This document shows positions 23,974-27,268 of a stretch of DNA of 27,268 bases, piece by piece; within the stretch, counting starts at the first letter, position 1; every line of letters starts with the position of its first letter. A model generated the notes under the pieces. It was not told where the DNA came from and ran no database searches. It saw only the letters and a program-made list of their open reading frames with translations. A program made the position numbers and the translations under genes. Source of the DNA: a virus; the IMG/VR virus record IMGVR_UViG_3300021378_000136, positions 1-27,268 of that record; one strand, 5' to 3'.

Positions 23974-24750
23974 ATGCCATTTAATATCAGTAATTTTAAA
24001 TCTTCGTTTGATAGATACGGCGGTCCTGCACAAGCAAATTTATTTGAAGTGTCTATACCTAACGTACCTAAAAATTTACCGGAGAATAATGTATTTGATT
24101 ATAAAAGACAATTCACATTCTTTTGTCATTCAATTACTTTTCCTGGTGTTGCTATTAATACATCAGATACAAACTATGTTGGTCAATTAGGAAGAAAGCA
24201 TCCAACAGCAGCACAAAACCCAGGTCCAATAAGCGCGTCATTTTTTGTTGATAGTGACCATCATATATTAACATTCTTTCATAACTGGGCGCAACAGATT
24301 GTAAACTTTAGTAAAAAGAGTGGACCGTTTACAGAAGTAAATGGTAAGCTGCCACATGAAGTTGGTTATAAAAATGACTTTGCGGTTCCAATGTATATAA
24401 GACATTACACAACAGATTCATTTCCTAATTCATATTATGAATGTGAATTGATTAAAGCTTATCCGGTTGCGGTTGCTCCTCTTGCGTTAGACTGGGCAAC
24501 AAATAGTTCATTCTTAAAATTAGACGTTCAGTTTGTCGTTGATGATTTTAGTTTTAGTTCAGATAAGACAGGCAACGCAGAACGTAGTGGAAGAGGCGGT
24601 GGCCTTTTAGATATTCTTGGTGACATAGCAGGATTTGCTGATACAGTACAAGGTACATTAAAGTCAGGCAAACCTACAAGCATACAAGATGCAGTAAACA
24701 AACTAACAAGATTAACGAATAGTTTTGGAAACTTGAGTGATAACATTTAA
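23974..24750 (+). CDS. 54: Baseplate tail-tube initiator gp54
   Basis: 258 aa (T4 gp54 is about 320). gp54 has a tube-protein-like fold, sits on gp48 and starts gp19 tube assembly. Visible features: YGGPAQANLFEVSIP, then FFCHSITFPGVAI, PISASFFVDSDHHILTFFHN followed by WAQQIV, and YYECELIKAYPVAVAPLALD, which parallel the T4 gp54 core (ISFRMDSEACNYRAMQDWVN, FTGCIPVSVSAPELSYD). The Gly/Ser-rich C-terminal helix with LTNSFGNLSDNI recalls the SLSRLSRLGG end of T4. In T4 gp48 and gp54 are consecutive on the same strand; here they lie on opposite strands on either side of the switch. An AGGGA ribosome site is present. Confidence 0.82.
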   Translation: MPFNISNFKSSFDRYGGPAQANLFEVSIPNVPKNLPENNVFDYKRQFTFFCHSITFPGVAINTSDTNYVGQLGRKHPTAAQNPGPISASFFVDSDHHILTFFHNWAQQIVNFSKKSGPFTEVNGKLPHEVGYKNDFAVPMYIRHYTTDSFPNSYYECELIKAYPVAVAPLALDWATNSSFLKLDVQFVVDDFSFSSDKTGNAERSGRGGGLLDILGDIAGFADTVQGTLKSGKPTSIQDAVNKLTRLTNSFGNLSDNI

Positions 24751-24766
24751 ATTATAGGAGTATATA

Positions 24767-25468
24767 ATGGCATTACCAAAAATTAACTTGCCAATCTCGG
24801 AACTTATTGTTCCAAGTAATGGACAAAAAATTAAATATAGACCTTTCTCGGTAGCAGAAGAAAAGGTCTTACTCATTGCGCAAGAATCGGAAGACGCGGT
24901 TCAAGAAGTAGTCGCAATGAAACAGATTATGAATAACTGTCTGATTGATTACGATGTAAACGATTTAGCTTTATTTGACTTTGAATACATATACTTGTTA
25001 TTGCGTTCAAGATCAGTTGATAATATAGCAAACTTTGTCATTAACGATCCACAGACTGGAGAACAGATTAACGTAGAGGTTGAACTTGATAATTTAGAAT
25101 ATCATTCAACAGATGGTCATTCAAAAGAATTAAAAATTAACGATGATTATACATTGTTTTTAAAATATCCATCTATTAATGAATTTATTAAAATTATTGG
25201 AATGGATAACGAAGATCCATTAGTAAACTATTTTATTATGACATCTTGTTTAGATACATTAGCATCAGAAGATGAAGTACATTCTTTTGCTGAATATAGT
25301 GATGAAGAGATTGAAGAGTTTATGGATGGACTTTCTAGTTTAGTAATTAAAGAAATAAGTAAGTTCTTTGAAACAATGCCTAAGTTAAGGCATGAACATA
25401 AGTATACTAACGAAGAGGGTAAAGAACAAACGTTCGTTATAGAAGGAACGCGTAGTTTTTTTATATAA
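24767..25468 (+). CDS. 26: Tail/baseplate chaperone gp26 family (T4_baseplate family)
   Basis: 233 aa. The N-terminus LPKINLPISELIVPSNGQKI, then KYRPFSVAEEKVLLIAQESE and MKQIMNNC, is the T4-like gp26 signature (Pfam T4_baseplate). FDFEYIYLLLRSRSVDNIA and the acidic C-terminal half follow. gp26 is a chaperone or hub-assembly protein for the tape-measure/hub complex, located just before the tape measure, like gpG in siphophages. AGGAG lies 6 bases before the ATG. The last codons AGT-TTT-TTT-ATA-TAA contain a seven-T slippery run followed at 6 bases by a hairpin; a -1 shift would replace the final Ile with a 58-residue extension, giving 290 aa (see the following entries). Main product ends at 25468. 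Confidence 0.85.
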   Translation: MALPKINLPISELIVPSNGQKIKYRPFSVAEEKVLLIAQESEDAVQEVVAMKQIMNNCLIDYDVNDLALFDFEYIYLLLRSRSVDNIANFVINDPQTGEQINVEVELDNLEYHSTDGHSKELKINDDYTLFLKYPSINEFIKIIGMDNEDPLVNYFIMTSCLDTLASEDEVHSFAEYSDEEIEEFMDGLSSLVIKEISKFFETMPKLRHEHKYTNEEGKEQTFVIEGTRSFFI

Positions 25469-25492
25469 GCCTTAGTCATATAACACTAAGGC
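25456..25492 (+). promoter_or_regulatory. Predicted -1 programmed frameshift signal at end of gp26
   Basis: T-TTT-TTT occupies 25456-25462 in the zero-frame X-XXY-YYZ phase (AGT-TTT-TTT-ATA-TAA). A 6-base spacer follows (25463-25468), then a perfect 8-bp hairpin: GCCTTAGT at 25469-25476 and ACTAAGGC at 25485-25492 with an 8-base loop. The -1 frame has no stop through 25635. Slippery run, spacing and stem all fit the usual geometry. It is not a terminator on either strand, since no U-run follows the stem. Real efficiency is unknown. Confidence 0.75.
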
Positions 25493-25515
25493 ATTATTAC
25501 CAAATCGTTTTCGCA

Positions 25516-25638
25516 ATGGCACAACACCATAAATGGTCAGTGTCTGAAATCGAGGCGATGATGCCTTATGAACGTGACTTATATTTTACAATGTTACTTG
25601 AACATATAGAAGAACAAAAGGAAGCTAATAAATCTTAA
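25516..25638 (+). CDS. Small ORF, likely the frameshift extension of gp26 (T-like domain)
   Basis: Taken from its own ATG this is 40 aa (AQHHKWSVSEIEAMMPYERD, then LYFTMLLEHIEEQKEANKS). There is no Shine-Dalgarno before the ATG (the preceding bases are CGTTTTCGCA). The same frame is open upstream to the slippery site at 25462, adding 18 codons (ending in QIVFA), so the natural product is probably gp26 residues 1-232 plus 58 residues. A W..SEIE.MMPYERD.Y motif followed by an amphipathic helix is the sort of motif found in the T-domain of lambda GT-type tail chaperones. In T4 the equivalent place holds gene 51; I cannot show homology to it. It lies 9 bases before the tape measure. Confidence 0.72.
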   Translation: MAQHHKWSVSEIEAMMPYERDLYFTMLLEHIEEQKEANKS

Positions 25639-25647
25639 GGTAATAAA

Positions 25648-27268
25648 ATGGCAGAAGATAAAGTAAAAACAGCAAAGACAGATCCTATTATAGATAGGCT
25701 TACTCGTGAAGGTGAGCTATTACGTAATAGTGGTTCTAATTCAATTAAGTCTGTAAAGATTGAATTAGCTAAGTTTGCGAGTGTTTTTGAGTCAATACAA
25801 GTGGCAACAACATCAACTGCTAAAGCATTAGGTACTTTAGAAAATACTTTCAATGTTCAAGATGATAAGCAAGATGATTTAATAGAGCAAATTAAAAATG
25901 CAAGTGAAGAAGATAAACAAAGAGCACAAGAAGCCTTAAGAAATAAAAAGGAAAAGGAATCAGAAGATGCTGGTTTATATGATCGTTTATCAGACGGCCT
26001 TGGTGGTTTAGGTAAAAGTATTAAGAGTGGCTTCGCAAGTATGAAAGAAAATAGCTTTAACTTTTTAAAGAAAGCTGCGCAGTTTTTAATCTTCGGTCCA
26101 CTTTTACTTGGTGCTATTAAAGGAGTTCTTGACGGTATCTTTGGTGAGAACAAAGTACAAGAAGTATTTACTAAAATTGCAGAGTCTCCATTTACTAAAT
26201 TTATATTAGATCATCCGTGGAAATCTCTTGGTATCGCATTAGTTGCGTTCGCTGGTGTTAAGTGGGCAGCAATGGCGGCTGCTATGTTTGCTGCTGCTAA
26301 AATGATGGGTGTTCAAGGTGGGACCGATGTTATTGGTGGTCCTGGTGGTGGCGATGGAAAAGACAAAAAAGGTAAAGGAAAAGGTAAGTTTAAATTTGGT
26401 AAAAGTAAATATGGATTAGCTGCAGCTGCTCTAGTAGCAGGTGGAGTTGGTTTATTCAGTATGTTTGGCGACGACGAAGACGATGAAACTGAAATTGCTA
26501 AAATGGAAGATAAGATTAAAAAGATTAATGAAGATGCTATAGCAGAAGAATCAAAAGTAGTTGATGGTGCTGTATTACAGTTTGAAAAAGATAGAGTAGG
26601 ATTAACGGACGTACTTGCAGACGCAGCAATATCAGCAGGCATTGGCTTTGCTGTTGGCGGACCATTAGGTGCTGGTGTAGCAGCTGCAGGATCGGTAGCG
26701 TTTTCTGGGTTAATGAGAGTCGGAGAAGGAGTATACGATTTCTTTGGTGATATTGATGAAGTATCAAATGAAACAGAAGATTTAATTAAAAACGAACAGC
26801 GCAAATTAAATAGTAAAAGAAACAAGTTAAATGCTGGAGATAAGGCCGATCTATTCCTTGAAACAAATAATGCGTTAATCGAAGAAAGAGATAGACTTGC
26901 AGATGAAGGCGCAGAGATAGATGATAAGCTTAAGGTGCTTAAAGAAAATTTAGCTAATCCAAGCTCACTAGGAACTGTAAGATCTGGTAGAGGAAGAAAT
27001 TCTCCTAGTGTAACAGTTAAAAGACTAGAACGTCAAATCGCAGATTTGGAAGAAGTTCGTTTATTACTTGCTAAACAGGAAGCGGTATCATCTCGTATTA
27101 TCGATGATAGATTGGCTACTATTGAAACAAAACCAGTTACACAGGTTGTTGAGCAAGTTGCAGAGCAAATAGTATCACAAGATCAAATAACACCGGTTGT
27201 TCCACAAACGCCCGAGCAAATGAAAGATGCTTCATCTAATGATAAGCCAATTATTAACATAATGAATA
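25648..27268 (+). CDS. Tail tape measure / baseplate hub protein at gp29 position, 3' end outside window
   Basis: Open from ATG 25648 (AAGG 7 bases upstream) to the right edge: 540 codons, C-terminus missing. The protein has an early helical part (IELAKFASVFESIQVATTST), a Lys/Glu/Asp-rich stretch, and four hydrophobic segments: about 143-165 (AAQFLIFGPLLLGAIKGVL), 193-222 (SLGIALVAFAGVKWAAM), 253-274 (KYGLAAAALVAGGVGLF) and 326-355 (AISAGIGFAVGGPLGAG). Heptad-like coiled-coil stretches follow (about 414-480; ERDRLADEGAEIDDKLKVL, LERQIADLEEVRLLLAKQEA). Hydrophobic segments separated by charged coiled coil are typical of tape measures, which set tube length and may enter the host membrane at injection. 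The position immediately after the gp26 chaperone supports this. I saw no peptidase domain in the visible part. Confidence 0.72.
   Translation, partial: MAEDKVKTAKTDPIIDRLTREGELLRNSGSNSIKSVKIELAKFASVFESIQVATTSTAKALGTLENTFNVQDDKQDDLIEQIKNASEEDKQRAQEALRNKKEKESEDAGLYDRLSDGLGGLGKSIKSGFASMKENSFNFLKKAAQFLIFGPLLLGAIKGVLDGIFGENKVQEVFTKIAESPFTKFILDHPWKSLGIALVAFAGVKWAAMAAAMFAAAKMMGVQGGTDVIGGPGGGDGKDKKGKGKGKFKFGKSKYGLAAAALVAGGVGLFSMFGDDEDDETEIAKMEDKIKKINEDAIAEESKVVDGAVLQFEKDRVGLTDVLADAAISAGIGFAVGGPLGAGVAAAGSVAFSGLMRVGEGVYDFFGDIDEVSNETEDLIKNEQRKLNSKRNKLNAGDKADLFLETNNALIEERDRLADEGAEIDDKLKVLKENLANPSSLGTVRSGRGRNSPSVTVKRLERQIADLEEVRLLLAKQEAVSSRIIDDRLATIETKPVTQVVEQVAEQIVSQDQITPVVPQTPEQMKDASSNDKPIINIMN

Follow-up and report, generated by a model that had tools for sequence, protein, structure and literature searches.

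In the DNA analysed here, a −1 programmed ribosomal frameshift at the end of a gp26-type gene is predicted with high confidence to yield two forms of a tail assembly chaperone. This DNA, referred to below as the window, comprises the 27,268 nt of IMG/VR record IMGVR_UViG_3300021378_000136 and belongs to an uncultured phage related to phage T4. The frameshift signal, conservation of this signal, coding conservation of the −1 frame, and homology to T4 gp26 and gp51 were all found in the sequence. The frameshift had been proposed in an initial annotation made from the window alone, and conservation of the slippery heptamer and of the −1 frame among relatives supported that reading.

The gp26-type gene (24767..25468; plus strand, as are all features described below) starts with ATG at 24767 and encodes a product of 233 aa, corresponding to the short form (TAC-N). 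The product is a member of the profile PF12322 T4_baseplate (E 4.7e-48, 164 bits against a cut-off of 24.5) and matched phrog_150 (baseplate hub) with E 1.1e-54. The 3′ codons of the gene, ...CGT AGT TTT TTT ATA TAA, contain the slippery heptamer T TTT TTT (25456..25462), which has the form X XXY YYZ in zero-frame phase exactly as initially annotated and is followed after one codon by the zero-frame stop TAA (25466..25468). Among 8,927 codon positions in the 18 window genes, this was the sole in-phase all-T heptamer.

The −1 frame was open from 25462 up to the TAA at 25636-25638, giving an extension of 58 codons plus TAA (25462..25638). Both this uninterrupted frame and the predicted fusion length of 290 aa (232 + 58) had been given correctly in the initial annotation. 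Residues 3-57 of the −1 peptide matched phrog_634 (baseplate hub assembly catalyst, E 1.8e-21), and homology therefore begins well 5′ of the ATG that gene finding would favour. From this match and from homology to the T4 gp51 tail, the extension was assigned as the putative T-like C-terminal domain of the long form (TAC-NC).

The signal was then followed through 231 IMG/VR loci in which the gene end was present, made up of the best 80 relatives and of 151 from two further searches seeded from the distant members Pseudomonas phage pf16 and Sinorhizobium phage phiM7. In 231/231 of them the same codons read T TTT TT(T/C) and the −1 frame was open, so that no exception to the retention of the T-run and open frame was encountered in IMG/VR. 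Among the best 80, heptamer and open frame were each present in 80/80, with a −1 frame of 55-66 codons where the contig end does not interrupt it. The two further searches gave 158 loci, seven of them cut before the gene end, and the heptamer was found in the remaining 151/151; all the −1 ORFs of at least 40 aa in this second set (147/147) matched an HMM of the T domain derived from the first set. These loci share ancestry, and 65 lineages remain at <75% identity. The sampled conservation reaches down to about 27% protein identity, and the window gp26 has at most 58% identity to the loci fetched.

The wobble base preceding TTT was always T, while the residue encoded by that codon varied (S, A, T, N, D, G, H). 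For 49 lineages at <80% identity, naive odds that ignore shared ancestry were about 1e-13 for the base before TTT and about 1e-9 for the TTT codon. Differences at the three codon positions of the −1 frame numbered 76/62/178, an excess at the third position. As judged from these comparisons, the −1 frame is protein-coding and conserved from the slip site onward.

A separate gene in place of the extension has been the usual annotation. The 3′ part of the extension reads as an apparent 40-codon ORF (25516..25638), and most of the cyanophage records examined annotate such an ORF as gp51, baseplate hub assembly catalyst; it would then have its own start and be translated by reinitiation after the gp26 stop. 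An ATG is present within 14 codons of the slip site in 25/65 lineages, in which some free small protein may be made. Against this explanation, 31/65 lineages including the window have none of the start codons ATG, GTG and TTG among −1 codons 1-14, a stretch in which the peptide is conserved, and a Shine-Dalgarno sequence accompanies just 1/47 early −1 start codons (46/47 without). A clear Shine-Dalgarno sequence was looked for in the window before the ATG at 25516 and none was present (ATTACCAAATCGTTTTCGCA), whereas the flanking genes carry one (TAGGAG for 24767, AAGG for 25648), in agreement with the initial annotation. The ATG itself is TTA in the close relative L004, and a separate gene leaves the invariant slippery heptamer unexplained. 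An independent start of the small ORF was rejected as the general explanation on account of the missing start codon in about half of the lineages and the near absence of Shine-Dalgarno sequences, and we regard it as very improbable. On the comparative evidence, the 40-codon ORF is the end of the −1 extension and not a separate gene.

Candidate stimulators of the frameshift were located on both sides of the heptamer. Downstream, the 6-nt spacer ATATAA (25463-25468), confirmed in length from the initial annotation, leads to a putative stimulatory hairpin (25469..25492) with arms GCCTTAGT (25469-25476) and ACTAAGGC (25485-25492) and an 8-nt loop (25477-25484). The perfect 8 bp previously described for this hairpin stand in the window, but they are not conserved base for base among relatives. 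Its stability by itself is unusual to a modest degree, being equalled or exceeded in 2% of 45-nt windows, and the weight of the argument lies on conservation of the heptamer; the hairpin is retained in L004 with one G-U pair. Across relatives, folds of the 45 nt 3′ of the heptamer are more stable than those of gp26 control stretches (p 1.5e-8); an MFE of −9 kcal/mol or lower was reached in only 29/65 lineages, and about half of the lineages have a stable downstream structure, in differing registers. A universally conserved hairpin was not found among the relatives, in which at least two different stems occupy the same place and none is stable in L006-L008. In a cyanophage-type stem of 11 pairs, the same pair is T-A in 21 sequences and G-C in 11. 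This compensatory pair, GCT with GAG versus GCG with GCG, is synonymous on one side and changes the amino acid on the other; the register of the window hairpin differs from that of this covarying stem.

Upstream, an internal Shine-Dalgarno-like AGAAGGA (25441..25447) lies 8 nt before the window heptamer. Such a motif was found in 41/65 lineages (63%) versus 7.7% of control positions, ending 8-10 nt before the heptamer in 40 of those 41, and was undetected in 24/65. Candidate stimulatory elements of both kinds, upstream Shine-Dalgarno sequence and downstream structure, are present among the relatives, neither being universal. The −1 heptamer A AAA AAG of E. coli dnaX is likewise preceded at about 10 nt by an internal Shine-Dalgarno sequence and followed by a stem-loop. 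The window resembles dnaX in this arrangement and differs in that dnaX is a cellular gene with another heptamer, whose shift truncates the product, whereas the predicted shift in the window extends it.

An alternative is RNA polymerase slippage, by which a U would be added on the T-run and a minority of transcripts would encode the fusion in frame. The seven consecutive Ts of the window would suit this mechanism, but 42/49 lineages have just six Ts followed by C. A six-T run is short for polymerase slippage, and transcriptional slippage is disfavoured because most relatives have only six Ts; conservation of codon phase and the covarying downstream stem favour ribosomal slippage instead, leaving the transcriptional mechanism a slim chance. 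Coincidence of a T-run with an unrelated open frame, for which the AT-rich genome might speak, was rejected as already refuted by the comparative data, its probability being practically nil given that conservation is complete across 231 relatives with protein identities down to about 27% and that the −1 frame is conserved as coding sequence.

With −1 ribosomal frameshifting as the preferred reading, most ribosomes would reach the gp26 stop and release the short form, and a minority would pause at U UUU UUU with tRNA-Phe in the P and A sites. Contact with the upstream Shine-Dalgarno-like motif, together with the downstream hairpin, would assist a slip of one base back, after which the −1 frame would be read to give the 290-aa long form with its 58-aa helical tail. 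If the two forms act as G and GT do in lambda, their shared N part would cover the tape measure, and tail-tube subunits would be recruited by the tail of the minor form. The synthesis of both proteins, their ratio and the chaperone role are what we infer from the sequence.

The slippery heptamer of the window is U UUU UUU versus G GGA AAG in lambda. The lambda G/GT system pairs a short chaperone with a longer one produced by −1 frameshifting that acts on the tape measure (PMC5009743, a review in which T4 is named as the exception to such frameshifting). The window is predicted to have the same pair of forms, and the analogy with lambda G/GT drawn in the initial annotation was judged right. The window gene differs in being a member of PF12322, and searches revealed no significant similarity between it and lambda-type chaperones. 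A fold search of PDB with the gp26 model gave no significant match (HK97 chaperone 2ob9 with probability 0.41, E 1.3), and none was obtained with a T4-type gp51 model; a sequence search of PDB gave no match, and an NCBIfam search nothing useful. Against viral models, the best named matches of the gp26 model were gp26-like baseplate hub proteins.

The gene neighbourhood contains a tail-tube-like gene 5′ of gp26 (23974..24750), which matched phrog_45 tail tube (E 2e-30) and PF23849 Phage_TTP_2 (E 5.5e-7). The large gene 3′ of gp26 (25648..27267) encodes 540+ aa and continues beyond the window end. It is presumed to be the tape measure from its position, from hydrophobic segments near residues 143-165, 193-217 and 255-274, and from weak profile matches (phrog_339 tape-measure profile, E 0.027; better for the gene in this place in R10Z and phiM7, E about 1e-5).

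In T4 itself, gp51 (249 aa) matched the gp26 profile over its length, and its C-terminal tail is homologous to the −1 peptide, here fused in frame to the gp26 domain. An HMM built from −1 ORFs only found T4 gp51 (E 3.7e-7) and other gp51s; T4 gp26 was absent among the matches listed. By this homology T4 gp26 and gp51 are paralogues, gp26 being the short form and gp51 the long one. A tree in which T4-type gp26 and gp51 cluster apart from the frameshifting gp26s (100/98), unrooted and with long branches, fits a single duplication in the T-even line. The remark in the initial annotation that T4 uses separate genes 26 and 51 was right, with the addition that gp51 is a gp26 paralogue carrying the same tail. 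T4 has its two forms in two genes on opposite strands and no frameshift, where the window has one gene and a predicted frameshift. In the 2022 report of Vladimirov, Gautam & Davidson, the short and long forms of T4 reportedly correspond to genes 26 and 51, and its abstract is said to state that frameshifting is conserved in several T4-like groups. In agreement with that report, the wider family of T4 would frameshift, with the short and long forms split over two genes in T4.

T4 gp51 is needed for assembly yet absent from the final particle, and the role listed for gp26 is that of a hub assembly chaperone (PMC3004832). From these roles and the homology, a mechanism of the lambda G/GT kind is suggested, in which the short chaperone would be the major product and the long one the minor.

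In some T4-like phages a short gene is accompanied by a longer fusion gene (Vladimirov, Gautam & Davidson 2022, Virology 566:9-15, as cited in PMC10885494), and the TAC-N genes of T4-like phages are known to contain slippery sequences of the poly-T type (2022 report, as cited in PMC12846349). As far as the citing papers describe them, these TAC-N/TAC-NC genes are of the same family as the window gp26. The arrangement is not new in kind, having been described for T4-like phages in 2022, and the window is a new, divergent member. In Vandenendeviridae and Andersonviridae a −1 frameshift at a T-run ending TAC-N is routinely misannotated (PMC12846349); a frameshift of this kind is predicted at the corresponding place in the window, but the motif in those families is GTTTTT and their phage lineage is another one. 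Neither a covarying downstream stem with an internal Shine-Dalgarno sequence nor the Vibrio clade described below was found mentioned in the literature searched, the 2022 paper being represented by papers that cite it.

In Enterobacter phage EC-F2 (L099:3001-4294) a gp51-type (long) and a gp26-type (short) gene lie in tandem on the same strand, whereas the T4 pair is divergent; the tandem arrangement is possibly close to the original duplication. The Vibrio phages K452 (L089, 3690-3905), 207E48.1 (L095), K369 (L268) and D532 (L269) have no canonical heptamer (GCTTTTTG or ACTTTTCA), and a TAATG stop-start overlap precedes a small ORF resembling the tail domain, pointing to a different mode of expression in this clade. 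It is conceivable, if rather doubtful, that one chaperone family has taken three routes to the tail domain: frameshifting in the window and most T4-like phages sampled, duplication with in-frame fusion in T4 and its close kin, and, in the Vibrio clade, heptamer loss with a TAATG overlap, the tail domain there perhaps being a free protein.

Among named phages, the heptamer was found in S-PM2, P-SSM2, phiM7, pf16, Vibrio phages R10Z and D484, Aeromonas phages phiWae14 and P19, Citrobacter phage Ci1, Stenotrophomonas phage Yut3, Rhizobium phage IG49, and phages B23, C48C1 and OLIVR6. The taxa concerned include Kyanoviridae, Emdodecavirus, Chakrabartyvirus, Schizotequatrovirus, Ceceduovirus, Menderavirus and others. 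A heptamer with G as its last base (T TTT TTG) was encountered once, in Rhizobium phage RHph_I46 (L273:1170-1204). In 35/151 loci of the second set the zero frame extends 8 codons beyond the heptamer, so both frames overlap as dual coding sequence.

In cyanophage records, among them L083, L091, L271 and L272, the −1 extension appears either as a separate gene gp51, with varying starts, or as a hypothetical protein. Roughly 570 phage records carry the small gene, often under the name gp51, and where the heptamer is present it should be re-annotated as the frameshifted end of gp26. Stenotrophomonas phage IME-SM1 (L088:3682-3786) has a slippery run one T shorter than its near relative Yut3 (L096) and an annotated gp26 with an unrelated C-terminus, which suggests that this record contains a sequencing error.
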